In this document: in pieces, positions 28,040 through 41,941 of the stretch
How the letters are laid out: each line of letters starts with the position of its first letter
How positions within the stretch are numbered: the first letter of the stretch is position 1
NCBI RefSeq assembly: GCF_024734665.1
Contig: NZ_CP102931.1
Location: 6,831,501-6,895,500, forward strand
From: Variovorax paradoxus
GTDB lineage: Bacteria > Pseudomonadota > Gammaproteobacteria > Burkholderiales > Burkholderiaceae_C
Direction of reading: 5' to 3'
DNA length: 64,000 nt
Notes under the pieces: generated by a model
Seen by the model: the letters and a program-made list of their open reading frames with translations, nothing else
The model's database searches: none
What the model was told of the DNA's origin: nothing
Translations under genes and position numbers: made by a program

Positions 28040-28834
28040 ATGAGCTTCAAACCCCGGATCCTGATTGCCGAAGACGAATCGGGCATCGCAGACACGCTGC
28101 AGTACGTCCTCAAGAGCGACGGATTCATCCCGGTCTGGTGCGCCACGGCCGAAGAAGCCATCGCCCAGTTCGCGCAGGAACCGCCGGCGCTGGCCATCCT
28201 GGACATCGGATTGCCCGATCTCAACGGTTTCGAGCTCTTCAAGCGCCTACAGGCGCTGAACCAGTCGATGGGCGGCCCGGAGGTGCCCATGGTGTTCCTG
28301 ACGGCCCGCAGCGACGAAATAGACCGCGTGGTGGGCCTCGAACTGGGCGCGGACGACTACATCGCCAAGCCGTTTTCGCCGCGTGAACTCGTCGCTCGCG
28401 TACGGACCATCCTGCGGCGCAGCGCCCGAAACGGCTCAGGAGCCCCCACGACGGGTGCAGCTCCAAACCATGGGATACCCCATCAAATCCCGGCCCAGAC
28501 GCCTCCAGCGAGCCCACAGGCACCTGCAATGCCCTTTTCGCTCGATAACGAGCGCATGCAAATCCGTTATTACGGACGCCTGCTGGAACTCTCCCGTTAC
28601 GAATACGGCCTGCTGAGACTGCTGGTGCAACGGCCCGGCCGCGTCTTCACGCGCGACGAATTGCTCGAACTGGTCTGGGACGATTCCAGCGACAGCTTCG
28701 ACCGGACGGTCGACGCGCACATCAAGACCCTGCGCGCCAAGCTCAAGGCGATCGCGCCCGAGGTCGAGCCGATCCGCACGCTGCGCGGCACCGGCTACGC
28801 ACTGAACGAAGAACTGCCCGCCAAGGCGTCGTGA
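28040..28834 (+). CDS. creB: Two-component response regulator CreB
   Basis: This 264-residue OmpR-family regulator has a receiver (RILIAEDESGIADTLQYVL; phospho-Asp55 in LAILDIGLPD; Lys in IAKPFSPRELVAR). A wing-helix output domain starts at about residue 170 (LDNERMQIRYYGRLLELSRYEY, ending RTLRGTGYALNEE). Unusually, about 40 Pro/Gln/Ala-rich residues separate the two domains. It is coupled to creC by a GTGA overlap. CreB family regulators recognise TTCAC-N6-TTCAC; that tag occurs at 36202-36217. Confidence 0.9.
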   Translation: MSFKPRILIAEDESGIADTLQYVLKSDGFIPVWCATAEEAIAQFAQEPPALAILDIGLPDLNGFELFKRLQALNQSMGGPEVPMVFLTARSDEIDRVVGLELGADDYIAKPFSPRELVARVRTILRRSARNGSGAPTTGAAPNHGIPHQIPAQTPPASPQAPAMPFSLDNERMQIRYYGRLLELSRYEYGLLRLLVQRPGRVFTRDELLELVWDDSSDSFDRTVDAHIKTLRAKLKAIAPEVEPIRTLRGTGYALNEELPAKAS

Positions 28835-30270
28835 CCCGGCGCACGCGGATCTTCATCGGCATCCTGCTGATCTACACGGCGGGCATCGCCTTCCTGCTGT
28901 ACCGCGTCGTTTCCGACATCGACCCGCGCTACCGCGAGTCGGCCGAAGAATCGCTGGTCGAAACTTCTCAGCTCGTGGCCAGCCTGGTCGAGCAGGACGT
29001 GATCGCCGGTGCCATCAACACGGCGCGGCTCGAGCCTCTCTTTCGCACCGTCTACGCACGCGAGTTCTCGGCGCAGATCTACAACCTGCACAAGAGCCGC
29101 GTCGAACTGCGCGTGTACGTCACCGACCGCAATGGCCGCGTGATGTTCGACTCGCTCGGCAGGCACCTGGGCGCCGACTATTCGCAGTGGGCCGACGTGA
29201 GCCGCACGCTGGCTGGCTTGTACGGCGCGCGCACCTCGCGCGATGTCGACGGCGATCCGCGCACTTCGGTCATGTATGTGGGCGCGCCGATCCGCTGGAA
29301 CAACGAGATCGTCGGCATGGTCAGCGTGGGCAAGCCGGTGCAGAGCTTCGGCCAGTTCGTGGAAGACGCCCGCGTGCGCACCATCTGGGTGGGCGTCGGC
29401 TCGGCACTCGCGCTGCTGCTGCTCACGCTCATCGTCTCGATCTGGCTGGTGCGGCCCTTCGGCCTGATCCGCGACTACTGGACCTGGGTACGCGCGCAGC
29501 ACAGCCTGAGCCTGGTGCGCATGGCACGCCGCGCGGTCGACGGTGTGCGCACCGGCTTCAGCGAAATGCGCGATGCCCTCACCGGCCGCAATTACGTGGC
29601 CGACTATGTGCAGACCTTCACGCACGAAGTGAAAAGCCCGCTCTCCGCCATTCGCGGCGCGGCCGAGCTGCTGCAGGAGCCGTCGATGCCGCATGCCGAG
29701 CGCGAGCGTTTCCTGAAGAACATCGAACGCGAGACACAGCGCATCCAGGAAATCGTCGACCGCATGATGGAGCTCACCGCGCTCGAGACGCGGCGCACGC
29801 TGGACCGCACAGAACCGGTGGCGCTGGCTTTGCTGATCGAGGACATCGCTGCCAGCGCACAACCTGCGGCAGCCAAGCGCAACATCAAGCTGCTCGTGAA
29901 CATTCGCGACGATGCCCGCACCGAAGGCGACCCGTTCCTGCTGCGCCGCGCCATCAGCAACCTGCTCGACAACGCCATCGATTTTTCACCGCGCGACAGC
30001 GAAGTTCTGCTCACGCTGGAAACGACCTCGAAGCTGGCCCGCGTGAGCGTGCGCGACCACGGCCCGGGCATTCCGGAGTACGCGCAGGAAAAAGTCTTCG
30101 AGAAGTTCTATTCGCTCGCCAGGCCCCACAGCCAGAAGAAGAGCACGGGGCTGGGGCTGGCGTTCGTGAAGGAGATCGCGGCATTGCACCGCGGCCGGAT
30201 CGATCTGGGCAACGCGTCGCGCGGTGGCGCCGTGGCGACGCTTACGCTGCCGTTGCTGTCACATCACTGA
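28831..30270 (+). CDS. creC: Sensor histidine kinase CreC
   Basis: This 479-residue inner-membrane kinase has an N-terminal transmembrane segment (IFIGILLIYTAGIAFLLY) and a periplasmic domain with the CreC-type features PRYRESAEESLVETSQLVASL and GDPRTSVMYVGAPI. A second membrane helix near residues 185-205 (LALLLLTLIVSIWLV) is followed by HEVKSPLSAIRGAAELL, NLLDNAIDFSP, DHGPGIPEYAQEK and GLGLAFVKEI. Start GTG at 28831 overlaps the creB stop. The end overlaps the stop of the convergent hypothetical gene by seven bases. Confidence 0.9.
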   Translation: MTRRTRIFIGILLIYTAGIAFLLYRVVSDIDPRYRESAEESLVETSQLVASLVEQDVIAGAINTARLEPLFRTVYAREFSAQIYNLHKSRVELRVYVTDRNGRVMFDSLGRHLGADYSQWADVSRTLAGLYGARTSRDVDGDPRTSVMYVGAPIRWNNEIVGMVSVGKPVQSFGQFVEDARVRTIWVGVGSALALLLLTLIVSIWLVRPFGLIRDYWTWVRAQHSLSLVRMARRAVDGVRTGFSEMRDALTGRNYVADYVQTFTHEVKSPLSAIRGAAELLQEPSMPHAERERFLKNIERETQRIQEIVDRMMELTALETRRTLDRTEPVALALLIEDIAASAQPAAAKRNIKLLVNIRDDARTEGDPFLLRRAISNLLDNAIDFSPRDSEVLLTLETTSKLARVSVRDHGPGIPEYAQEKVFEKFYSLARPHSQKKSTGLGLAFVKEIAALHRGRIDLGNASRGGAVATLTLPLLSHH

Positions 30271-30875
30271 GGGCGGCCGATCAGCGCGCAATAGGCGCTG
30301 CGAGTTTCCGGACTCACAGCCCCGAGCGCCTGCAAATACTGCGTCTGGTGCTGCCCGATCATGCGAGCCGACGCCACCGTCTTCGAGCGGCAATACCAGT
30401 GGCAGGTGTGCTGCATCAGGAACAGCTCGGCCGACATGGTGAAGGCTTTCGATTTAGGCGTGCGTCCGGCTTCGTTGCGCATCACGCCGGCAACGCCGCG
30501 TGCATGGATGAGCAGGGCCTGGCGCACGTCGAAGGTCGAGGCCGGAAAAAACTGCGTGAACAGCGGAATGGCCACCGGCAGCTTGCTCACGCGCGTGGCG
30601 GGTTCGGGCATGCGCGAGAACTCGGCGGCGAAGCTGTCGAACTGGGCAGAGAGCTTTTCTTCGGTGGCGTCGAGCAGGTGCCAGATCTGCTGGCGGCGCT
30701 CGGCGTCGTCTTCGCCGAGGCAGCGCATGTAGCCGGAGGTGAGGCTCTCCATCAGCCTCTCGATCTGGTAGCGCCCGAGGTGGCTGGCCAGCAGCGCGAT
30801 GCGCATGCGCTGTTCCCTGGACTTGAGGATGTAGAAGCCGGCGGCAAAGAGAGCCACCAGAGTAAGAATTTCCAT
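30264..30875 (-). CDS. Conserved hypothetical protein with N-terminal membrane anchor
   Basis: This 203-residue protein has an N-terminal hydrophobic helix (ILTLVALFAAGFYIL) and then a mostly helical soluble body with many basic and acidic residues. Two Cys near the C-terminus (HTCHWYCRSK) and a further one in YCALIGRP may bind metal or form disulfides. I do not recognise the family. It overlaps the 3' end of creC on the opposite strand. Confidence 0.7.
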   Translation of the reverse strand: MEILTLVALFAAGFYILKSREQRMRIALLASHLGRYQIERLMESLTSGYMRCLGEDDAERRQQIWHLLDATEEKLSAQFDSFAAEFSRMPEPATRVSKLPVAIPLFTQFFPASTFDVRQALLIHARGVAGVMRNEAGRTPKSKAFTMSAELFLMQHTCHWYCRSKTVASARMIGQHQTQYLQALGAVSPETRSAYCALIGRPQ

Positions 30876-30888
30876 GGATGCGTGGAGA

Positions 30889-30941
30889 AGAAAAAGAGAA
30901 GGCGGGAAGCAGCACCGAGTGTAGGCACCGCGACCCGCCTT
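30889..30941 (-). terminator. Terminator downstream of the class A PBP gene
   Basis: On the leftward strand, AAGGCGGG pairs with CCCGCCTT around a loop of about 27 bases, followed by a T-rich TCTTTTTC tail. It sits just after the stop of the class A PBP gene, inside the upstream region of the hypothetical gene. Confidence 0.6.
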
Positions 30942-30960
30942 CGCTTTTCAGCTCTGCGAC

Positions 30961-33363
30961 TTACCGGAAGAAATCGAGAATCCTGTTGCGTTCTTCCGGC
31001 ACCGGCGGCGCTCCGATGGGCGCACCCGTGAGTTCTTCGGCCGGCGGCGGCGGCGCTTCGCTTTCCAGACCCAGGCTCGCCACGTTGTGGCCCGGCGTGA
31101 AGTCGTCGAAGTACCACTCGCCGTCGACGTTCACCACGCCAGGCGGTTCCGCCGGTTGCGTCACGGGCACGCCCTGCAGCGCGGTCTGCATGTAGCCAAT
31201 CCAGATCGGCAGGCTCAGGCTGCCGCCGGTTTCACCGCGTACGCCGAGCTGGCGCGGCGTGTCGTAGCCGATCCACGCGATGCCGACCATGGTCGGCTGG
31301 AAGCCCGCGAACCATGTGTCGAAGGAATCGTTGGTGGTGCCGGTCTTGCCGTAGAGGTCGTCGCGCTTCAGAGCCTGATGTGCCTTGAAGCCGGTGCCGT
31401 TCTTCACCACGCTCTGCAGCAGCGAATCCATGATGAAGGCGTTGCGCTGCGGAATGGCGCGGCGCGCTTCGTCGAGCACCGGCGGCTCGGTTTCCATGAT
31501 GACCTTGTCCCTCATGTCGGTGACACGCGTGACCAGGTACGGATTGACGCGGTAGCCGCCGTTGGCGAACACCGAATAGCCCACCGCCATCTGCATCGGC
31601 GTGACCGAGCCGGCGCCCAGGCCCATGGGCAGATTCGCTGGGTGCTTGTCCTTGTCGAAGCCGAACTTGGTGATCCAGTCTTGCGCATAGGGCGCGCCGA
31701 TCGACTCCAGCACGCGCAGCGTGACGAGGTTCTTCGACTTCATCAGCGCGGTGCGCAGCGGCATCGGGCCTTCGTAGGTGCCTTCGAAGTTCTTCGGCTC
31801 CCAAGGCTGGCCGCCGTTGGCGCTGGCATCGAAGTACAGCGGCGCGTCGTTCACCACGGTTGCGGGCGTGAAACCTTTTTCGAGTGCTGCCGAGTAAATG
31901 AAGGGCTTGAAGCTCGATCCCGGCTGGCGCCAGGCCTGCGTCACGTGATTGAACTTGTTCTTGCCGAAATCGAAACCGCCGACCAGTGCCTTGATGGCGC
32001 CGCTGCGCGGGTCCATGCCGATGAAAGCGCCTTCCACCTCAGGCAGCTGCGTGATTTCCCAGGTGTTCTTCGGCGTCTTGGCCACGCGGATGACCGCGCC
32101 GCGGCGGATCTTGATGTTCGGCGGTGCCTTCGCAGCGAGGCCCGACTGCGCGGGTTTCAGGCCGTCGCCCGTGATCTGGATGGTTTCACCGTTCGCGCGC
32201 ACGGCGCTGATTTCCTTCGCGTTCGCGTCGAGCACCACGGCCGCGACCACGTCGCCGTTGTCAGGGTGTTCGGCCAGTGCGTCGTCCACGGCTTCGTCGA
32301 TTTCCTTCTGCTCGGTCGGCAGGTCGACGAACCTCTCGGGGCCGCGGTAGGGCTGGCGCCGCTCGTAGTCCATGATGCCCTTGCGCAGCGACCTGTAGGC
32401 CGCTGCCTGGTCGGCCGCCACGAGCGAGGTGTAGACCTTCATGCCGCTGGTGTAGATGCTGTCGCCGTACTGCGCGTACATCATCTGGCGCACCGTCTCG
32501 GCCACGTACTCGGCATGCAGCCGGTTCGGATCGGCGGCGTCGCGCAGGTGCAGTTCTTCCTTCTTGGCTTCTGCAGCCTGGTCGGCGGTGATGAAGCCGG
32601 TTTCCTGCATGCGGTCGATCACGTAGAGCTGGCGCGCCCGCGCGCGGCGCGGGTTGGCCACGGGGTTGTTGGCGCCGGGCGCCTTCGGCAGGCCGGCCAG
32701 CATTGCGGCTTCGGCGATGGTGACGTTCTGCAGCGGCTTGCCGAAATAGGTTTCGGCGGCGGCCGCAAAGCCGTAGGCGCGATTGCCCAGGTAGATCTGG
32801 TTCAGGTAGATCTCGAGGATCTGGTCCTTGGTGAGTTGCCGTTCGAGCCGCAGCGCCAGCAGGATCTCGTAGGTCTTGCGACTCATCGTCCGCTCCGAAC
32901 TCAGGTACACGTTGCGTGCAACCTGCATCGTGATGGTCGACGCGCCCTGCTTGCGGCCGCCCTTCAGGCTGGCCACCGCGGCACGCAGGAAGCCCTTGTA
33001 GTCCACGCCGCCGTGGTCGTAGAAGCGCGCGTCTTCCACAGCCAGTACCGCGTCTTTCATGACCTTCGGAATGTTGGCGAAAGGCGTAAGGTTGCGGCGC
33101 TCTTCACCGAACTCGCCGATCAGCTGGCCTTCTGTCGAGTACACGCGCAGCGGCAGCTTGGGGCGGTAGTCGGAGAGCTCCGACACATCGGGCAGCTTCG
33201 GATAGATGGCGACCACCGCGACGATGGCTGCGACCAGCACCACGAGCGCGCCGGAGCCGACCGCGATGGCGCCCCAGCCGGCAATGCGCTTCCACGGCGC
33301 GCGGGGTTCGTTGGACGCCGCGTTGCCGTCGTCGGAAGGTTTGGAGCTTGAGCGTTTGAACAT
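30961..33363 (-). CDS. mrcA: Class A penicillin-binding protein (PBP1a-type)
   Basis: This 800-residue bifunctional enzyme polymerises and cross-links peptidoglycan at the inner membrane. After a transmembrane helix at about 30-52, the GT51 domain shows AVEDARFYDHGGVD and GASTITMQVARNVY. The transpeptidase domain shows SSFKPFIYSAAL (catalytic Ser), SKNLVTLRVLE (SxN) and GKTGTTNDSFDTWF (KTG). An OB-like insert lies between the domains, as in PBP1a. It ends the leftward operon creD - GH3 - mrcA, 24 bases after the GH3 stop. Confidence 0.95.
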   Translation of the reverse strand: MFKRSSSKPSDDGNAASNEPRAPWKRIAGWGAIAVGSGALVVLVAAIVAVVAIYPKLPDVSELSDYRPKLPLRVYSTEGQLIGEFGEERRNLTPFANIPKVMKDAVLAVEDARFYDHGGVDYKGFLRAAVASLKGGRKQGASTITMQVARNVYLSSERTMSRKTYEILLALRLERQLTKDQILEIYLNQIYLGNRAYGFAAAAETYFGKPLQNVTIAEAAMLAGLPKAPGANNPVANPRRARARQLYVIDRMQETGFITADQAAEAKKEELHLRDAADPNRLHAEYVAETVRQMMYAQYGDSIYTSGMKVYTSLVAADQAAAYRSLRKGIMDYERRQPYRGPERFVDLPTEQKEIDEAVDDALAEHPDNGDVVAAVVLDANAKEISAVRANGETIQITGDGLKPAQSGLAAKAPPNIKIRRGAVIRVAKTPKNTWEITQLPEVEGAFIGMDPRSGAIKALVGGFDFGKNKFNHVTQAWRQPGSSFKPFIYSAALEKGFTPATVVNDAPLYFDASANGGQPWEPKNFEGTYEGPMPLRTALMKSKNLVTLRVLESIGAPYAQDWITKFGFDKDKHPANLPMGLGAGSVTPMQMAVGYSVFANGGYRVNPYLVTRVTDMRDKVIMETEPPVLDEARRAIPQRNAFIMDSLLQSVVKNGTGFKAHQALKRDDLYGKTGTTNDSFDTWFAGFQPTMVGIAWIGYDTPRQLGVRGETGGSLSLPIWIGYMQTALQGVPVTQPAEPPGVVNVDGEWYFDDFTPGHNVASLGLESEAPPPPAEELTGAPIGAPPVPEERNRILDFFR

Positions 33364-33387
33364 AAGAGTTGGCTGCTTGCTTGTCTG

Positions 33388-34680
33388 CTAGCGAAAGGAT
33401 TGGAGCCGCGGCGCGCCACTGCGTTCCAGCATCGGCAGGTCGAGCGTGCCCTGCCGCGCTGCCTGCTGCGCGCAATGCATGGCATCGAAATACTTGTCGT
33501 GGTCGAAGGCGATCAGCAACAGGTCCACGCCGGCGCCAAGGGCGCGAACGGTGGCATCGCAAAGACCGCGGTTGTAGGCTGCGCCCATCGTGAGATCGTC
33601 GGTGACGAGCAGGCCCTGGTAGCCCCATTCGCCTCGAATTACCCGCTGCACGATTTTGCGCGAGAAAGAGACCGGATATTCGGCGTCGAACTCTACAAGG
33701 ATGACATGGCCCAGCATGATCGCGGCATCCGAATGTTTCGACACGTCTTGAAACGGCTTCCAGTCGTGCGCCGCGAGCTGGGCGACCGGCGTGCGCAGTT
33801 CGGCGGCGAAATGATGGGTGTCCTCGGCTACACCGCCCAGGCCGGGAAAATGCTTCAGCGTGCCGCGAACGCCTGCGGATTCAAGGCCCAGCTCGTAAGC
33901 GAGCGCCACCTGCGCAGTGATGGCGGGGTCGGCCGAGATCGCGCGTTCGTCGATGCGGGTGTGAAAGTCCCAGCGGCCCGGTGCGCGGCCGGGGCGCAGG
34001 TCGACCACCGGGCTGAAATTGAGCGTGATGCCTAAAGCGGCGAGCGCCCTGCCCTGTTGCGCACCGTAGGCACGGGCGCGTTGCGCGAGTTCGTTGTCGA
34101 GCACGTCGGCGTCGAGCAGCGAGGCGAGTGAGGGCTGGCGTTCGACCAGCGGCGAGAGGCGCGAGACCGAGCCGCCTTCCTGGTCGGTTGCGACGATCAG
34201 CGATGGCAGGCCAGCTTCGCGGCGCAATGCTTGCAGGCCTTCGATCTCATTGCGCAGTTCAGCGGCCGTGCGGCCCTTTACATTGCGGCCGGTTACGAAG
34301 ATTCCGCCGATCAGGCCCTTTCGGGCCAGCTCGCGCAGGTTTTTTGCATCGTCATACCCGACGATGAAATGCGCGCCCAGTGTCTGGGCAAGCGGGCCCT
34401 CCGATGCATTCACTTCGGCCCGGTGCTGGTGCGAGGCCGCCTCATTGCACAGGGCAGTCAGCAAGGCCGCGAATGCCAGGCCCAGAGCGACCGGGCGCAA
34501 GTTGCCCCGTGCAAACCTCCAGGCGATGGTGATGCTGGCCACCAGTATCGCCAACAGCAAGGGCAGTTCCCACGCCCGCATGAAGCGCAAGTGCGGGTCC
34601 TTCAGGTGCCAGGCCCAGAACCACAGCGTGGCCAGGGTCAGCCAGCCCGATGCACTCGCGATGACCCGCAGCAGTCTCAT
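33388..34680 (-). CDS. Membrane-anchored GH3 (NagZ-like) beta-N-acetylglucosaminidase
   Basis: This 430-residue protein has about 90 N-terminal residues with three probable membrane helices (GWLTLATLWFWAW, LPLLLAILVASITIAW, VALGLAFAALLTALC), then a GH3 N-terminal-type TIM barrel. The active-site motifs KHFPGLGG and DDLTMGAAYNRG (catalytic Asp) and a DTHH segment resemble NagZ, which removes GlcNAc from anhydromuropeptides. NagZ is usually soluble and cytoplasmic, so membrane anchoring is unusual. Its ATG overlaps the creD stop by four bases. Confidence 0.85.
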   Translation of the reverse strand: MRLLRVIASASGWLTLATLWFWAWHLKDPHLRFMRAWELPLLLAILVASITIAWRFARGNLRPVALGLAFAALLTALCNEAASHQHRAEVNASEGPLAQTLGAHFIVGYDDAKNLRELARKGLIGGIFVTGRNVKGRTAAELRNEIEGLQALRREAGLPSLIVATDQEGGSVSRLSPLVERQPSLASLLDADVLDNELAQRARAYGAQQGRALAALGITLNFSPVVDLRPGRAPGRWDFHTRIDERAISADPAITAQVALAYELGLESAGVRGTLKHFPGLGGVAEDTHHFAAELRTPVAQLAAHDWKPFQDVSKHSDAAIMLGHVILVEFDAEYPVSFSRKIVQRVIRGEWGYQGLLVTDDLTMGAAYNRGLCDATVRALGAGVDLLLIAFDHDKYFDAMHCAQQAARQGTLDLPMLERSGAPRLQSFR

Positions 34681-36119
34681 GCCGCCTGCGCTTCCGGTGC
34701 CGGTTCCACGCGTCGTGAGAGCGCATACCAGTCGACCTTGCGCGTCACCAGCATCAGCGTGGCCAGCATGCCGAAGATCAGCAGCGCGCCGAGCAGCAGT
34801 GCGTTGCTCTCGGAAGCCAGCAGGCCGTAGAGCGCGCCATAGAGCAGCGCCGCGAAGGCGCCGAAGGACAGGCCGCGCCGCCAGCCTCCCAGCACCGCGC
34901 TGAAGTACACGGCCAGCAGCGCAACGCTCGCCGTGGCAGCGCCCGCATACGCCATCCAGAACGCGAACTTCTCCGACAGCGCAAGCAGCAGCAGGAAGAA
35001 CAGCGCGATCGACAGGCCGACCAGGCCGTACTGGATCGGATGCAGGCGCAGCTTGCGGAACAGTTCGAACATGAAGGCGGCCATCAGCACCAGCCCGATG
35101 AACAGCGCGCCGTACTTGCCGGCGCGCGTGCTCATCGAATAGACGTTGATGGGCTGCGCGAGCGACACGTCGAAGGTCTGCAGCGAGCCCGTGTTCTGAC
35201 GTGCCTGGGTGGTAGCTGCTTCAGCGGCGTTGCTGCGACCTGAGAGACCCGCGCGAACCTGCTCGCGCGCCGAAGTCACGAGCGAAGACACGCGCCAGTG
35301 CGCGTCGAAGCCCTGCGGCGTCACGCTGCGCTCGGCCGCGAGAAAGCGGCCGCCGAAGCTGGGGTGTGCCCAGGGCGAGGTCAGGTGCGCGGTCGTTTCC
35401 TCGGCGATGGGCGCGACGGAGAGCGTGTCCTGCCCGACCAGGCCGAGCTTCATTTCGAACGCGACCGGCGTGTTGGCCTGCCATGCATTGAGCGCTGCGC
35501 CGGTGAGCGGCGCGTGGATGCCGTCTGCAAACCATGCACCGTCGGCCAGGCCCGGCACGCGCTGCTTGAAGCGCAGTGCCTCGCCGCTCATCGTCATCGC
35601 GGGCGAGCCGTCGAGGCCGCGCAGGTCGCTCACGTTGAAGGCGATGAAGGGCGCCTTGAATTCGATGCTCGAGTCGGACTCGCTGTGCGGCACGGCCTTC
35701 GGGTCGAAGGCCGTGAAGCCGCCAGTGAGCGTGGCGTTGAGCGTGTAGAACGGAATCTTGAAGATGCCGCGGTAGCGCTCCTGCGGCGCCATCGTGCCTT
35801 CGATGTGCAGCTTCTCAGGAAACACCACGTGGGCCATTTCCTTGCTGCGCGGCTCCTGGCCGATCACTTTGCCCTGCGCGTCGCGCAGCGGCTCCATCCA
35901 GCGCTCCACATACGGCACCAACAGCAGCGGCCCGACCATCGTCTGGCGGCCCGCGTAGGTGGCGGCGAGCTCGTCGGCCGCTTCGCGCTGGCTCTCGCCG
36001 CGGGCGCGGTTGATCGAGTCGATCTCGCCCAGCGGAATGCACAGGAGCAACAGCAGGAAGAACAGGCCGGCGACCTTGGCCAGCACCGAACTCTGAAGGG
36101 CCTTCAACAACTGAAGCAT
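34677..36119 (-). CDS. creD: Inner-membrane protein CreD
   Basis: CreD is a membrane protein of the CreBC regulon whose expression accompanies changes in cell-envelope integrity and beta-lactam response. The 480-residue protein starts MLQLLKALQSSVLAKVAGLF with a first helix. A large periplasmic domain follows (NRARGESQREAADELAATYAGRQTM, FKIPFYTLNATLTGGFT), and the C-terminal multi-helix region includes KYGALFIGLVLMAAFMFELF and the CreD-typical LHPIQYGLVGLSIALFFLLLLALSE. GAGGAGAG precedes the ATG. It heads an operon with the GH3 and class A PBP genes. Confidence 0.93.
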   Translation of the reverse strand: MLQLLKALQSSVLAKVAGLFFLLLLLCIPLGEIDSINRARGESQREAADELAATYAGRQTMVGPLLLVPYVERWMEPLRDAQGKVIGQEPRSKEMAHVVFPEKLHIEGTMAPQERYRGIFKIPFYTLNATLTGGFTAFDPKAVPHSESDSSIEFKAPFIAFNVSDLRGLDGSPAMTMSGEALRFKQRVPGLADGAWFADGIHAPLTGAALNAWQANTPVAFEMKLGLVGQDTLSVAPIAEETTAHLTSPWAHPSFGGRFLAAERSVTPQGFDAHWRVSSLVTSAREQVRAGLSGRSNAAEAATTQARQNTGSLQTFDVSLAQPINVYSMSTRAGKYGALFIGLVLMAAFMFELFRKLRLHPIQYGLVGLSIALFFLLLLALSEKFAFWMAYAGAATASVALLAVYFSAVLGGWRRGLSFGAFAALLYGALYGLLASESNALLLGALLIFGMLATLMLVTRKVDWYALSRRVEPAPEAQAA

Positions 36120-36167
36120 GGTTTTCTCTCCTCGTCTGTAGCGAAGCCGCGATGCTCGCCGCGCGAT

Positions 36168-36183
36168 CCGAAGGCCGTGTGAA
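36168..36183 (-). promoter_or_regulatory. Degenerate Cre tag facing creD
   Basis: On the leftward strand the sequence reads TTCAC (36183-36179), six bases, then TTCGG (36172-36168). This matches the CreB tag at 8 of 10 defined positions with the exact six-base spacing, about 50 bases before the creD start. Confidence 0.5.
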
Positions 36184-36201
36184 GCGTGCGCGCCGCTTCG
36201 C

Positions 36202-36217
36202 TTCACACAGACTTCAC
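36202..36217 (+). promoter_or_regulatory. Cre tag facing the VIT/exosortase operon
   Basis: TTCAC-ACAGAC-TTCAC is an exact match to the CreB recognition tag TTCAC-N6-TTCAC known from E. coli. It lies 106 bases before the start of the VIT/VWA gene and on that gene's coding strand. Confidence 0.75.
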
Positions 36218-36323
36218 AGAGCCAGGCACGGGTGTTTCCGACTTCAAGAAGCCTTCCAACTGCCTTCTCGTGTGGTGCCGACAGTTGCGGCTGTGCAAGT
36301 TCGCACGGACAAGGACCCCCGCC

Positions 36324-38387
36324 ATGGATGCCCACATCACCACCCCACGTCCCGGCCGCTGGCTCTGGCTCGCCACCGTGAGCCTGGCGACTGCGGGCTT
36401 CATTGCCATGGGCGTGCGCCCGGCGCATGCGCAGGAAGCGCCCGCCGGCCCGCGCCTGAAGACCGAGAGCCCGTATTTCTTCGTGAAGAGCGACGATCCA
36501 TCGGTCGACCGCCTGCCGCTGAAGGGCACCGAGGTCTCGGTGAAGATCTCGGGCGTGATCGCCGACGTGACGGTCACGCAGACCTACCGCAACGAAGGCC
36601 AGCGCGCCATCGAAGCGAAGTACGTTTTCCCCGGCTCGACCAAGGCCGCCGTGAGCGGCCTCAACGTGCGCCTGGCCGACCGGCTCATCACCGCGCAGAT
36701 CCGCGAGAAGCAGCAGGCGCAGATCGAATACGACGCCGCCAAGAAGGAAGGCAAGACCGCCGCGCTGCTCGAGCAGCACCTGCCCAATGTGTTCCAGATG
36801 AATGTCGCCAACATCATGCCGGGCGACGACGTGAAGGTGGAGCTGCGCTACACCGAGCTGCTGGTGCCGCAGTCGGGCAACTACCAGTTCGTGTTCCCGA
36901 CCGTGGTCGGGCCGCGCTACAACTCGCCGCAATCGGAGAACGCGCAAGCCAAATGGGTCGCTCAGCCCACGTTGCCCGCGGGCGTGGCGCCGAGCACCAG
37001 CTTCAGGCTCAAGGCCAGCATCGACACGCCGATGGGCATCAAGGAAATCCGCTCGGCCACGCACACCATCGACGTGAAGAAGAGCGACGAAGACCAGCAC
37101 GCCGACATCGCGCTCAAGGCCGACGGCCGCTCCGCCGACAACCGCGACTTCGTGCTCGACTACCGTCTGGCTGGCGAGAAGATCGAGTCGGGCCTGATGC
37201 TCTACAAGGGCCAGGGCGAGAACGCGGAGAACTTCTTCCTCGCGATGGTCGAGCCGCCCAAGGCCGTGGCCGCCAGCGCCATCTCGCCGCGCGACTACAT
37301 CTTCGTGGTCGACATCTCTGGTTCGATGCACGGCTTTCCGCTCGACACCGCGAAGACGGTGCTCGAACGCCTGATCGGTGGCCTGCGCCCCAGCGACACC
37401 TTCAACGTGCTGCTGTTCTCCGGCAGCAACAAGATGCTCTCGCCCAAGTCGGTGCCGGCCACGCGCGCCAACATCGAGCAGGCGCTTGCCACCATCCAGA
37501 ACTACAGCGGCAGCGGCAGCACCGAACTCATTCCCGCGCTGAAGCGCGCGTACGCCGAGCCCAAGGAAGAGAACGTGTCGCGCTCGGTGGTGGTGGTGAC
37601 CGACGGCTACGTGACGGTCGAGCGCGAAGCCTTCGAGCTTGTGCGCAACAACCTCTCGAAGGCCAATGTGTTCGCCTTCGGCATCGGTTCGTCGGTCAAT
37701 CGCAGCCTGATGGAAGGCATTGCACGCGCCGGCATGGGCGAGCCCTTCATCATCACCGACCCGGTGCAGGCCCCCGAGCAGGCCGCGCGCTTTCGCCGCA
37801 TGGTCGAGTCGCCGGTGCTCACCAGCGTGAAGGCCACCTTTGGCGGGCTCGATGTGTACGACGTGGAACCGCAGGCCCTGCCCGACGTGCTCGGCGAACG
37901 CCCGGTGATCGTGTTCGGCAAATGGCGTGGCGAAGCGAAAGGCCGCGTGATCATCGAAGGCCAGAGCGCCAGCGGCCCGTACCGCCAGGAAGTGCGCATC
38001 GACGATCGCACCCGCCAGGACACCGCCGCGCTGCGCACGCTGTGGGCCCGCCACCGCATCCAGAGCCTGAGCGACCAGGAAACGCTGGAAGGCGGCACGG
38101 CTTTCAAGGAACGCATTACCGAGCTCGGCCTGAAGTACAGCCTGCTCACGCAGTACACGAGCTTCATTGCCGTCGACAAGGTGGTGCGCAACGTGGCACC
38201 GCAAGACAGCGTGGGCGTGAACCAGCCGCTGCCGATGCCGCAGGGCGTGAGCAATCTCGCGCTAGGCGCCGAAGTGCCGAGCACGCCCGAACCCGAATCG
38301 CTCGGCGCCATCGCCGTCGTGCTGTCGATGCTCGCGATGCTGCGCCGCCGCGCGCGCCGCAACGACGCACGTCGTTTCACTGCCTGA
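36324..38387 (+). CDS. VIT/VWA-domain protein with PEP-CTERM-like sorting tail
   Basis: This 687-residue exported protein begins with a signal peptide (LATVSLATAGFIAMGVRPAHAQ). The VIT domain (about 40-170) shows EVSVKISGVIADVTVTQTYRN and ITAQIREKQQAQIEYDAAK. The von Willebrand A domain (about 325-500) has the metal site DISGSMHGFP. The last 40 residues form a sorting signal: TPEPESLG, a hydrophobic stretch (AIAVVLSMLAML), then RRRARR. The next gene encodes an exosortase, presumably its dedicated processing enzyme. I chose the ATG at 36324 because the signal peptide follows it. Confidence 0.88.
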   Translation: MDAHITTPRPGRWLWLATVSLATAGFIAMGVRPAHAQEAPAGPRLKTESPYFFVKSDDPSVDRLPLKGTEVSVKISGVIADVTVTQTYRNEGQRAIEAKYVFPGSTKAAVSGLNVRLADRLITAQIREKQQAQIEYDAAKKEGKTAALLEQHLPNVFQMNVANIMPGDDVKVELRYTELLVPQSGNYQFVFPTVVGPRYNSPQSENAQAKWVAQPTLPAGVAPSTSFRLKASIDTPMGIKEIRSATHTIDVKKSDEDQHADIALKADGRSADNRDFVLDYRLAGEKIESGLMLYKGQGENAENFFLAMVEPPKAVAASAISPRDYIFVVDISGSMHGFPLDTAKTVLERLIGGLRPSDTFNVLLFSGSNKMLSPKSVPATRANIEQALATIQNYSGSGSTELIPALKRAYAEPKEENVSRSVVVVTDGYVTVEREAFELVRNNLSKANVFAFGIGSSVNRSLMEGIARAGMGEPFIITDPVQAPEQAARFRRMVESPVLTSVKATFGGLDVYDVEPQALPDVLGERPVIVFGKWRGEAKGRVIIEGQSASGPYRQEVRIDDRTRQDTAALRTLWARHRIQSLSDQETLEGGTAFKERITELGLKYSLLTQYTSFIAVDKVVRNVAPQDSVGVNQPLPMPQGVSNLALGAEVPSTPEPESLGAIAVVLSMLAMLRRRARRNDARRFTA

Positions 38388-38411
38388 ACAAAACAAAAAG
38401 AGAGAAGAAAA

Positions 38412-39341
38412 ATGTCTTTGGCAACGCTCGCCCACCGCCACCCGCGCATCGTGGACTGGGGCATCCACATCGACCGCACGCCGGCCGCCGGCTGGCTCGG
38501 GTTGCAGTTTCTTGCGCTGATGCCGACCTGGGTCTGGATGGTGCAGCGCATGCGCGACGGCTCCGACGATCCAATGGGCCTGCTGGCATTGGTCGCGCTC
38601 GCGGCACTGACCTGGAACCGCCGGCGCGAACTGCGTGCCTCGCCGCGACTGGGCTGGCTCGCGCTGGCTGGCGCGGGCACCGTGCTCGCGACGCTGCTGC
38701 GCACGGGGCTCGGCTTCGTGCCCGCGCTGCCGCCGCTTGCGGCCGGGCTGGTGGCCGTGCTGGCGCTGGCTTGCGGGCTGCTGGCTTTCCTGCCGCGCCG
38801 CGTGGCGGCGTTTCCGGTGGCCGGCCTTGCGGTGCTGGCGCTGCCGCTGCTGTCGTCGCTGCAGTTCTATGCCGGCTATCCGCTGCGCGTGCTGACGGCC
38901 GAAGTCAGCCGTTGGCTGCTGGCACCGGGTTTCGACGTGGCGCGCGAAGGCACGAGCCTGATGATCGACGGCCGGCTGGTGATCGTCGATGCGCCCTGCT
39001 CGGGCGTGCAGATGGTGTGGCTCGGCTACTTCACGGCCTGTGCCGTCGCGCTGTGGGCGCGCCGCAGCGACCGCGCCTTCATGCGCCGCCTGCCGATGGT
39101 CGGTCTCTTCGTGCTGGCCGGGAACATCGTGCGCAACAGCGTGCTGATTGCCTTCGAAGGCGCTGGCCATCCGCTTGCGCCGTGGGCGCACAACGCGTTG
39201 GGCCTGCTGGTGCTGGCCGTGGTGTGCGGTGCCATCGCCCGCCTCATGGTGCCGGCCCGGTCCGAACCCCAAGCTGCCGAACACCCCATTCCAGGCCTGA
39301 TCACCACCCAAGGAAGCCGCCATGTCGACACCGTTCTTTGA
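38412..39341 (+). CDS. Exosortase family membrane protease
   Basis: This 309-residue protein has eight or more predicted membrane helices and the exosortase active-site triad: Cys in IVDAPCSGVQMVW near residue 197, Arg in AGNIVRNSVLIAFE, and His in APWAHNALGLLVL. It probably cleaves the PEP-CTERM-like tail of the preceding VIT/VWA protein. The subtype cannot be named with confidence. Start ATG follows an A-rich, GAAG-containing leader; its stop lies inside the next gene by 20 bases. Confidence 0.9.
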   Translation: MSLATLAHRHPRIVDWGIHIDRTPAAGWLGLQFLALMPTWVWMVQRMRDGSDDPMGLLALVALAALTWNRRRELRASPRLGWLALAGAGTVLATLLRTGLGFVPALPPLAAGLVAVLALACGLLAFLPRRVAAFPVAGLAVLALPLLSSLQFYAGYPLRVLTAEVSRWLLAPGFDVAREGTSLMIDGRLVIVDAPCSGVQMVWLGYFTACAVALWARRSDRAFMRRLPMVGLFVLAGNIVRNSVLIAFEGAGHPLAPWAHNALGLLVLAVVCGAIARLMVPARSEPQAAEHPIPGLITTQGSRHVDTVL

Positions 39342-39891
39342 GCGCTGGTTTGCAAACCATTTCATCAACCGCATCGGCCACAAGACAGCCTTTGCGCTGG
39401 CGATGGTGCTGTGCGTGCTGTGGTCGGCAACCGCGGCTGTGCGCGCACCGGCCGAACCGGTCGCTGCAGTGATGTCGCACGAATGGCCTGGCGAGTGGGA
39501 TGGAGTTCCGTTGCGCCCGCTGGCCCTGAGCGACGTGGAGCAGCGCTTTGCCGACCGCTTCCCCGGCGCCATCGGCCGCATGACCGACGGCACTCAGACC
39601 CTGGTGATGCGCGAGGTGGCGCAACCCACGCGCATGCTGCACCCGGCGACGGACTGCTACCGCGCGCTGGGCTACCGCATCGAACAGGCGCGCCTGGAAC
39701 GCGACGCGCAGGAGCGCATGTGGCGCTGTTTTGTTGCGCAACGGCACGGTGCACAAAAAATCCGCGTTTGCGAGCGCATCGTCGATGCCCGGGGCACGGC
39801 TTTCACAGACACTTCAAGCTGGTACTGGGCAGCGGCCAGCGGCCAATCCCATGGGCCGTGGCAAGCTGTCGCGGTAGCAAAACCGATCTGA
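39322..39891 (+). CDS. EpsI-like exosortase-associated protein
   Basis: This 189-residue protein has one N-terminal helix (TAFALAMVLCVLWSATAAV) and a periplasmic body. The segment MLHPATDCYRALGYRIEQ resembles the conserved HSPxxCxPxxGW region of EpsI-type partners of exosortases. AAGGAAG precedes the ATG at 39322, which lies within the exosortase coding end. It probably assists the exosortase, but the sequence match is partial. Confidence 0.7.
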   Translation: MSTPFFERWFANHFINRIGHKTAFALAMVLCVLWSATAAVRAPAEPVAAVMSHEWPGEWDGVPLRPLALSDVEQRFADRFPGAIGRMTDGTQTLVMREVAQPTRMLHPATDCYRALGYRIEQARLERDAQERMWRCFVAQRHGAQKIRVCERIVDARGTAFTDTSSWYWAAASGQSHGPWQAVAVAKPI

Positions 39892-39908
39892 CGATCCGAG
39901 AACGTGCC

Positions 39909-41174
39909 TTGAAGAAGATCCTGCGATTCGTGCTCTACGGCCTGCTGGCCTTGGTCATTACGGCGTGTGTAGCTATCTTTTTGATAGTCAAGCTGGCGCT
40001 CGCGCCGGCTGCGGGTGAGTGGAGCACCACGGTGAAGACGGGGCCGCTGAATTTCGAGATCGGCATTCCGACCGCAGTGCGCGTGGCCACCTCGTCGTGG
40101 TTCGCGCCCTACCTCGACGGTCGTTCGCTCGACACCAGCTTCGGCACCGTGCGCTTCGCCTGGAAGCCGGCCGGCGATCTGCTCGAAATGCAGTGCGCCC
40201 CCTGCAGCGCCGAGGTTCCGGCGCTCGGCACCCAGCCGATCCGGGTCGAGCGCCTGATCGCCACCGTGAAGCGCGACGGCAACACGCTCAACGGCACCTT
40301 CGAAGCCACGCCCCAGGGCACTGACACCACCCGGCTGCAAGGCAACTGGGACGGCAGGCTCACGCCGAAGAACATCCATCTGAATGCCAGCGTGCAGGAC
40401 GCGCCCATCGCGCGCTGGTACGCGGTGCTGGTGCCCACCCTGCCCGAGCTGCAGCGCGCACGCATCGGCGGCACGCTGGCGCTGCGCGGCCAGCTCGTGC
40501 TGCCCGAGGCCACTTTTGCGGTGCAGCCCGTCATCAGCCAGTTCACCGTCGAGGGGCTGGGCACCGAGGCCATGCTCAACGCGCGCACCAGCTGCGGCCC
40601 CTCGGCCAAGCTGGCCAACGACAGCTGGCTGGCGCGCGCCGTCATCGCCGCCGAAGACCAGCGCTTCTTCACCCACAGCGGCTACGACCTGACCGAGATC
40701 CTCGCGTCGATCGACAACAACCAGAAGCCAGGCCAGATCCGGCGCGGCGGCAGCACGCTCACGCAGCAGCTGGCCAAGCTGCTGGTGACTGGCAGCGACC
40801 GCACGGCCGAGCGCAAGCTGCGCGAGCTGCTCTACGCGGTCGAGATGGAGCAGACGCTGGGCAAGGCCCGCATCCTGCAGCTGTACCTGGACAACGCGCC
40901 CTGGGGCGGCAACATCTGCGGCGCCGAAGCCGCGGCGCGGCGCTACTTCAAGCGCAGCGCACGCACGCTCGAACCGGCGCAGGCCGTGTGGCTTGCCGCC
41001 ATGCTGCACAAGCCGCAGGCCGTGCTCGAGCAATGGCGGCGCGACGGCCACATCGACGCCGACCGCATCAAGTGGGTTGCCGAGGGCATCCGCGGTATCA
41101 GCCGGAACCAGCGCGAAGCGCTGCTCAAGGGCGTGGCCGCGGCGAAGTTCACGGCGCCGGAGGCCACGCCATGA
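39909..41174 (+). CDS. GT51 peptidoglycan glycosyltransferase with long N-terminal domain
   Basis: This protein of about 421 residues ends in a monofunctional GT51 domain (residues 235-390): AVIAAEDQRFFTHSGYD holds the catalytic Glu, followed by RRGGSTLTQQLAKLL and ILQLYLDNAPWGGNICGAEAAARRYF. No transpeptidase domain follows. Before it come a membrane helix (FVLYGLLALVITACVAIFLI) and about 190 residues of beta-rich sequence I cannot assign. The best start is TTG at 39909; no ATG is near. The next gene overlaps it by four bases. It adds a second glycan polymerase to a locus that already encodes a class A PBP. Confidence 0.85.
   Translation: MKKILRFVLYGLLALVITACVAIFLIVKLALAPAAGEWSTTVKTGPLNFEIGIPTAVRVATSSWFAPYLDGRSLDTSFGTVRFAWKPAGDLLEMQCAPCSAEVPALGTQPIRVERLIATVKRDGNTLNGTFEATPQGTDTTRLQGNWDGRLTPKNIHLNASVQDAPIARWYAVLVPTLPELQRARIGGTLALRGQLVLPEATFAVQPVISQFTVEGLGTEAMLNARTSCGPSAKLANDSWLARAVIAAEDQRFFTHSGYDLTEILASIDNNQKPGQIRRGGSTLTQQLAKLLVTGSDRTAERKLRELLYAVEMEQTLGKARILQLYLDNAPWGGNICGAEAAARRYFKRSARTLEPAQAVWLAAMLHKPQAVLEQWRRDGHIDADRIKWVAEGIRGISRNQREALLKGVAAAKFTAPEATP
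39972..39988. repeat. Dispersed palindrome GCTAT-N7-ATAGY, copy 3 (in coding sequence)
   Basis: GCTAT-CTTTTTG-ATAGT lies inside the GT51 gene, encoding part of its membrane helix. One arm base differs from the consensus; the seven-base spacer is kept. Confidence 0.5.
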
Positions 41175-41941
41175 ACACCATGACACTGAACGTCACCGAC
41201 ATCGAAGCCATCGAGCGCGCCACCATCGCGGCCGTGTCGCCCGACCTGACCGAGGAGCTCGACGGCTGGCTGCTGCCCTTTGCCGGCGGCACCGTGAAGC
41301 GCGCCAGATCAGCCGTGCCGCTGCACCGCAGCGCGGTCGATCACGCAACGCTCGACCGCATCGAAGACCGCTACGACAGCCGCCAGGTCGTGCCCGCGCT
41401 GCGGCTGGCCGACGCACCCTGCTTCGACGGGCTGCGCGCCGAGCTGGAGCGGCGGCACTACATCGGCGACAGCCCGACCTGCGTGCAGATCGGGTCGGTG
41501 CAGCGCATGCGGCAGGTGGTCGCGCCAGGCGGTGCATTGGCCGATGTCGACCGCGCGCCCGACGACGCGTGGTCGGCGCTGTTCCTCGGCGAGGGCTTCG
41601 ATCCGGTGGACGGCGCCCATCGCGTGCGGATGCTGTCGCGGGCCAAGGGCACGCTCTATGCCAGCGTGCGCGAAGGCGGCCGCACGCTGGCGGCCGGCGC
41701 GATGGCGTTCGGGCATGGCTGGGCCAGCGTGCACGGCATGCGCACCGATCAGGCGCAGCGCGGGCGCGGCCTTGCGGGGCGCGTGCTCGCCGGGCTGGCG
41801 CAGGCCGCGTCTGCGCGCGGCTTCGAGCGGGTGTTCCTGCAGGTCGATGCGCACAACCACCCGGCGCTGTCGCTCTACCGCCGGGCGGGCTTCGAGACGC
41901 ATTGGAAGTACAACTACTGGCAGCGCCAGCAGTGGCCTTGA
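41171..41941 (+). CDS. GNAT-family N-acetyltransferase
   Basis: This 256-residue protein resembles two-part GNAT enzymes: an N-terminal acetyl-CoA-like half (EELDGWLLPFAGGTVKRARSAVPL) and a C-terminal catalytic half (WASVHGMRTDQAQRGRGLAGRVLAGL; then HNHPALSLYRRAGFETHWKYNYW). The substrate is unknown. It is coupled to the GT51 gene by an ATGA overlap and is the last gene of the putative exosortase operon, so an envelope substrate is possible. Confidence 0.85.
   Translation: MNTMTLNVTDIEAIERATIAAVSPDLTEELDGWLLPFAGGTVKRARSAVPLHRSAVDHATLDRIEDRYDSRQVVPALRLADAPCFDGLRAELERRHYIGDSPTCVQIGSVQRMRQVVAPGGALADVDRAPDDAWSALFLGEGFDPVDGAHRVRMLSRAKGTLYASVREGGRTLAAGAMAFGHGWASVHGMRTDQAQRGRGLAGRVLAGLAQAASARGFERVFLQVDAHNHPALSLYRRAGFETHWKYNYWQRQQWP

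Follow-up and report, generated by a model that had tools for sequence, protein, structure and literature searches.

Genes at the creBC-exosortase Q locus

A window of 64,000 nucleotides from the genome of Variovorax paradoxus (contig NZ_CP102931.1, positions 6,831,501 to 6,895,500; the genome is one contig of 7.29 Mb, labelled G000 below) holds the genes of the two-component system CreBC near an operon for exosortase Q (XrtQ). The operon runs tightly packed on the forward strand from position 36324 and encodes a VIT/VWA protein, exosortase Q, an EpsI-like protein, a GT51 transglycosylase and a GNAT protein. An exact copy of the Cre tag, TTCAC-N6-TTCAC, faces it. Comparison with related genomes indicates that the XrtQ module very probably has CreBC as its dedicated regulator.

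The features are collected in Table 1. A sequence-only reading of this DNA had named creB-creC, creD, a class A penicillin-binding protein (PBP) and the five operon genes, all of which are present according to curated models or Pfam domains. The GH3 gene, which it described as NagZ-like, has the GH3 domain but stays under the cut-off of the NagZ model (NF003740, 159 bits against 207), hence 'NagZ-like' only. CreB, CreC and CreD exceed their curated cut-offs and the tag is as published, so that in these respects the locus resembles CreBC/BlrAB systems with CreD; the CreB/BlrA tag is given as TTCACN6TTCAC in passages of PMC4689548.

The exosortase passes the curated cut-off of NF012182, and the known system behind this likeness is the named model only. 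Cys196, Arg241 and His260, which we take to be the catalytic triad, are invariant in an alignment of 17 of 17 sequences. The EpsI-like gene matches the fused XrtT model only over model positions 285-446. The VIT/VWA protein ends in TPEP, a hydrophobic stretch and an Arg-rich terminus, the composition of a PEP-CTERM tail; TPEP is present in all 15 hand-picked tails that were aligned. A model of the XrtQ-type tail finds one good match in the genome, the VIT/VWA protein itself (E 9.5e-19; next 0.2), and the genome has a single exosortase match (PF09721). Judged from these sequences, the VIT/VWA protein is the likely XrtQ substrate, presumably cleaved and anchored by it. The family model TIGR03788 scores it at 429 bits, under the cut-off of 552.

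Both tags named in the sequence-only reading were found, the exact one facing the exosortase operon and a degenerate one facing creD. The exact tag, TTCACACAGACTTCAC, begins 122 bases ahead of the VIT gene ATG. Five matches with at most one mismatch were observed in the window against 1.98 expected, so that within the window by itself the tag could be chance; the one-mismatch match at 39802-39817, inside the EpsI-like gene, was taken as chance. At this tolerance of one mismatch the window does not give significance, and the case therefore rests on comparison. Exact tags number six in the 7.29 Mb, which by our arithmetic amounts to about 2 in 10,000 per 200-base gap.

Table 1. Genes and Cre tags of the locus, in window coordinates
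Feature	Position	Strand	Evidence
creB, response regulator	28040..28834	+	NF008296, 303 bits vs cut-off 273
creC, sensor kinase, XrtQ-type branch	28831..30270	+	NF008312, 590 bits vs cut-off 356; tree
203-aa gene, listed before class A PBP, GH3 and creD		-	no NCBIfam family match
Class A PBP, lineage-limited neighbour	30961..33363	-	TIGR02074, 596 bits vs cut-off 509
GH3, NagZ-like, lineage-limited neighbour	33388..34680	-	PF00933
creD, inner membrane protein, divergent from VIT gene, lineage-limited neighbour	34677..36119	-	NF008712, 470 bits vs cut-off 275
Degenerate Cre tag toward creD	36168..36183	-	TTCACACGGCCTTCGG; 8/10 fixed letters
Exact Cre tag TTCAC-N6-TTCAC toward VIT gene	36202..36217	+	TTCACACAGACTTCAC
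VIT/VWA protein, PEP-CTERM-type tail, likely XrtQ substrate	36324..38387	+	PF08487, PF13768
Exosortase Q (XrtQ)	38412..39341	+	NF012182, 403 bits vs cut-off 270
EpsI-like protein	39322..39891	+	C-terminal part of NF033770
GT51 transglycosylase (TTG start, chosen by us)	39909..41174	+	PF00912
GNAT, lineage-limited neighbour	41171..41941	+	PF00583

Conservation of the tag and of the module

A family set of 299 genomes was searched with NF012182, which scores over cut-off in 46; the analysis covered all 46 loci, 45 of them fetched and the other being that of the window. All 45 fetched loci have the VIT gene, xrtQ and the EpsI-like gene on one strand. In 44 of the 45 a GT51 relative, matched from its N-terminal part on, follows within 5 kb on that strand (it was not found in L033), and the GT51 gene is a conserved member of the operon. 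Both glutamates of the GT51 motifs, presumably the active site, are kept in all 43 sequences that cover them. The approximately 240 residues that precede the GT51 domain are also conserved in the family loci; this part matches no Pfam family (best DUF748, E 0.21), and the GT51 protein reaches 142 bits on the monofunctional transglycosylase model TIGR02070, under its cut-off of 183.

Within the fetched stretches, creC stands on the VIT-xrtQ strand in 33 of 45 loci and creB in 29. The remaining neighbours are rare: a GH3 gene occurs in two loci, an opposite-strand class A PBP in six, a GNAT gene in three and creD, on the opposite strand, in nine. These four were consequently rejected as conserved core. 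The rarity of GH3 and PBP genes across the 45 loci places both outside it, and the earlier inclusion of a recycling enzyme and a class A PBP in the system does not extend to XrtQ loci at large.

Two family loci fall outside the tag count, one at a contig end (L040) and one whose VIT gene contains a stretch of N (L034). An exact tag on the forward strand lies no more than 250 bp from the VIT start in 40 of 43 loci with a usable start, and an exact reverse-strand tag in none of the 43; L044, with an exact tag 100 bases before its corrected VIT start, raises the total to 41 of 44. The only three loci that lack an exact tag (L043, L045 and L065) have one with a single mismatch at -107 to -118, and each is the sole XrtQ genome sampled in its genus. 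Chance would account for 0.03 tagged loci, given a background of 4 tags in 826 kb outside the upstream stretch, and the comparison thereby settles the question of chance. By our count the 44 testable loci represent 24 genera, with an exact tag in 21. The tags begin 90 to 186 bases ahead of the ATG, and the exact ones are always oriented toward the VIT gene. Around both TTCAC words there is a recurring flank ACA and an inner C-n-G-purine-C, and in seven loci TTCAC occurs three times, with a period of 11 bases.

A second set of named genomes was drawn from the best 80 of 209 relatives by XrtQ alignment; it consists mostly of Variovorax and close genera and overlaps the family set (L127 with G215, for example). 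With L138, L189 and L198 omitted, an exact tag is found within about 330 bases of the VIT gene in 76 of 77 testable loci, the sole exception being L162, with one mismatch. Tag and gene order are thus kept among XrtQ loci, the test that the sequence-only reading had set for itself. The arrangement it proposed to survey, creD and the VIT-exosortase genes with a tag between, holds in the family set for the tag, with a divergent creD in 9 of the 45 fetched loci.

Variovorax genomes also keep the degenerate tag. Of the 77 named loci, 50 have a reverse-strand match to at least 8 of the 10 fixed letters at a distance of 33 or 34 bases upstream from the exact tag (background 2.4 in 10,000 for each position), but these loci are close relatives. 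The VIT gene has a divergent creD in 55 of the 77; since 17 of the 22 in which no divergent creD was found also keep the degenerate tag, its tie to creD is uncertain.

Control VIT genes were taken from a class set of 369 genomes, 60 of which match TIGR03788 with an E-value of 1e-60 or lower; 40 of the 69 matches outside the window genome were fetched. An exact tag within 800 bases upstream was found for one of the 40, L100 (genome G607, family f84), where creB, creC, VIT, xrtQ and the EpsI-like gene are consecutive; no GT51 match was obtained in the stretch of L100 examined. G607 and the window genome are the 2 of 369 class genomes that pass the XrtQ cut-off. Other VIT genes were rejected as CreB targets, with a tag in 0 of 39 controls that lack XrtQ over cut-off; the test is weak for L105 and L112, where the match begins inside the gene and the searched stretch is mostly coding. 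In one control without a tag (L098, G366), the VIT gene has a TPEP tail and lies near an exosortase that does not pass the XrtQ cut-off. XrtQ-like exosortases below cut-off also occur in two other families (L330 in G597, L331 in G456), where an EpsI-like gene and a PEP-CTERM-type tail of another kind lie alongside; no VIT match or tag was found in these short loci.

CreBC, creD and further tagged genes

CreC was detected in 123 of the 299 family genomes (122 over cut-off) and CreD in 94. It is present in 45 of the 46 XrtQ genomes, the exception (G104) being 76% complete, and in 78 of the 253 genomes without XrtQ (Fisher p 4e-19, a value that overstates independence because the genomes are related). 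The distance between creC and xrtQ is within 12 kb in 34 of the 46, 26 to 46 kb in three and 1.9 Mb in one; in seven the two lie on different contigs, and in one CreC is absent.

This group differs from CreBC/BlrAB systems with CreD in three ways: the conserved output here is the exosortase module, CreC forms a branch of its own, and CreD is missing in 27 of the 46 genomes. Among these 27 the tag is exact in 22 and has one mismatch in three, two being untestable. CreC genomes without XrtQ have CreD in 74 of 78; of the four with neither, G118 and G148 hold split XrtQ pieces and G129 and G266 none. The CreC regions of 40 of the 74 CreC and CreD genomes without XrtQ over cut-off were fetched, and an exact tag lies between 150 bases before and 500 bases after the end of creC in 26 of them. 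In L210, L218 and L224 an exact tag is placed farther on, before creD, for a total of 29 of 40; the best match has one mismatch in eight, and L201, L216 and L219 have neither. With the tag behind creC and before creD, the order creB-creC-tag-creD therefore matches creB-creC-tag-VIT-xrtQ of the XrtQ group. In XrtQ genomes an unlinked creD can have a tag of its own, which begins 84 bases before the gene in G035 and 100 bases ahead of the creD match in G091.

A tree of 90 CreC proteins was calculated, in which L048, L049 and L074 were replaced by L260, L259 and L258 and L257 was dropped. One branch (Shimodaira-Hasegawa-like approximate likelihood ratio test, SH-aLRT, 100; length 1.16) holds 48 of the 49 sequences labelled as from XrtQ genomes. 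Three of those labelled come from genomes whose XrtQ is merely split or partial (G118, G148 and G027), and another comes from family f84. This division of CreC may partly reflect the phylogeny of the organisms themselves.

A further exact tag, TTCACCAAGACTTCAC, lies about 75 kb from the window tag and 38 bases before the first ATG of an alpha-2-macroglobulin gene (L080:9449-17972 on G000:C1), whose product has 2019 aa and the thioester motif CTEQ. Behind it lies pbpC, over the cut-off of the PBP1C model. The CTEQ motif and the pbpC gene behind it, in this tagged Variovorax operon, are shared with type I alpha-2-macroglobulins encoded with PBP1c; the difference is the control by CreB that is proposed here. 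Among 61 genomes of the genus, 19 carry this paralogue; the tag is exact in 17 of them, has a mismatch in one and is missing in one. An alpha-2-macroglobulin gene of G197, from another genus, has a tag 69 bases ahead of it. Alpha-2-macroglobulin as a family-wide target is unsupported: a bMG3 match was found in 33 of the 45 genomes considered, and among the matches listed tags occur in G000, G215 and G197. The idea that alpha-2-macroglobulin and PBP1c act jointly after a breach of the wall appears in part of PMC5764988, and the operon points to envelope defence in Variovorax. Other exact tags in G000 and its relatives were viewed at 21 loci, most without a convincing target. In a single case (L298:2120-3500, G096), an exact tag with the extended flank lies 40 bases ahead of a MurA-family gene.

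Regulation and relation to known systems

As a whole, the locus is best explained, with good likelihood as far as genome comparison can tell, as a CreBC-regulated exosortase Q sorting module. CreC would sense an envelope signal, and phosphorylated CreB would bind TTCAC-N6-TTCAC upstream of the VIT/VWA gene and change, most likely raise, transcription of VIT-xrtQ-epsI-GT51. The VIT/VWA precursor would be exported, and XrtQ would recognise its PEP-CTERM-type tail, cut it and anchor the protein at the cell surface; GT51 would contribute glycan-strand synthesis. creD and, in some Variovorax, the alpha-2-macroglobulin-pbpC operon would share the regulon. The role of CreBC as dedicated regulator is argued from the conserved tag, the co-occurrence of CreC, the control VIT genes, the shared slot behind creC and the CreC branch. 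Of the regulon originally proposed, the tag, gene order, CreC co-occurrence and GT51 stand, and the GH3, PBP, GNAT and creD genes are lineage-limited neighbours outside the conserved core.

Envelope signalling through CreBC at this locus is likely by analogy. The activating conditions reported for CreBC vary by species, and beta-lactams were without effect on the Stenotrophomonas creD promoter, according to passages of PMC4689548; the earlier phrase 'under wall stress' draws on CreBC work in other species. The transglycosylase in the operon makes a link to the wall plausible.

Several observations weigh against dedicated control by CreBC. In 11 of the 45 XrtQ genomes with CreC, creC is more than 12 kb away or on another contig. 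G188, an XrtQ genome, carries a CreC of the creD type and a mismatch in the tag of its VIT gene. Conversely, an XrtQ-type CreC occurs without XrtQ over cut-off in genus g63 (two rows, CreD present) and, with neither XrtQ nor CreD, in G129. The loci are related and mostly from one family, so the counts are not independent. A search for -10 elements placed 16 of 44 best matches inside one 7-base stretch (shuffle mean 8.6, maximum 15), but these are low-scoring and from related loci, and as evidence for a promoter downstream of the tag they are weak. The support for control of the XrtQ module comes from sequence. In G129 (L256), where creB-creC is of XrtQ type, creC is followed at about 1.1 kb by a PBP/GT-type match.

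The sign of CreB also varies, and this too counts against the scheme: CreBC lowers creD expression in Stenotrophomonas maltophilia (passages of PMC4689548), which would favour a CreB that binds the tag but represses the module, with surface display rising when CreBC is off. We regard repression as unlikely, since CreBC raises creD in E. coli and Aeromonas (same passages) and a PBP4 mutation in Pseudomonas activates CreBC and raises creD (part of PMC2654508). The tags, at 90 to 186 bases before the ATG, moreover leave room for a downstream promoter, as with an upstream activator site. Other regulators of the OmpR/PhoB class also bind direct repeats, and some XrtQ genomes have an exact tag despite distant CreBC, so that the tag might serve such a regulator and CreBC be a mere neighbour. 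This appears improbable, since the identical word precedes creD in those CreC genomes that lack XrtQ, agrees with the published CreB/BlrA tag and is accompanied by CreC in every XrtQ genome except one incomplete.

Very little speaks for a tag that serves creD, the VIT operon merely sharing the gap: the divergent creD of most named loci would fit, but the exact tag always points toward the VIT gene, is kept in 22 of 25 testable XrtQ genomes without CreD, and has creD beside the VIT gene in few fetched loci. Ordinary synteny without regulatory meaning, which the dominance of one family and a CreC split that may follow the organisms' tree would allow, is equally hard to credit. The tag is retained at loci from which creBC has relocated (L031, L036 to L039, L041 and L042, for example) and despite differing flanking genes, XrtQ without CreC occurs in a single genome of the 46, and the module is complete, GT51 excepted, in family f84.

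Two-component systems tied to protein sorting are already known. In the proteobacterial dedicated sortase system, a TIGR03785 kinase, a TIGR03787 regulator and a TIGR03788 VIT/VWA target form one sortase system. The CreBC-XrtQ locus resembles it in having a VIT/VWA target of that family next to a sorting enzyme and two-component genes; here an exosortase replaces the sortase, CreB and CreC are the regulator and kinase, and the target tail is of PEP-CTERM type. CreC reaches 104 of 612 bits on TIGR03785 and CreB 128 of 336 on TIGR03787, both below cut-off, and no sortase was found among the ten window proteins scanned, the genome not being searched for one. PrsK/PrsR, likewise a two-component system, is linked to genes for PEP-CTERM proteins (part of PMC9850573); it is RpoN-dependent with a Fis-type regulator, whereas CreB is of OmpR type. 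Searches of the open-licence PubMed Central literature found no mention of exosortase Q, of CreB or CreD with an exosortase (in line with the earlier remark that no such link is described), of an exosortase with a two-component system and a VIT domain, or of a 'proteobacterial dedicated sortase', and for Variovorax with an exosortase nothing beyond a floc-formation paper.

The cellular role of exosortases is, to our knowledge, poorly known. Through the link to a studied envelope regulator, exosortase Q would gain a testable trigger, a promoter, a single substrate and a wall synthase in the same operon. CreBC would gain a conserved output besides creD, with XrtQ-VIT and creD occupying the same place behind creC under the same tag. 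A broader and tentative proposal, to which we give limited credence, is that CreBC runs a defence against envelope breach: XrtQ would display a protein of the inter-alpha-trypsin-inhibitor heavy-chain type, GT51 and CreD would help to restore the wall, and some Variovorax would add an alpha-2-macroglobulin protease trap and PBP1c. If this is true, one sensor would link wall repair with the blocking of hostile proteases.

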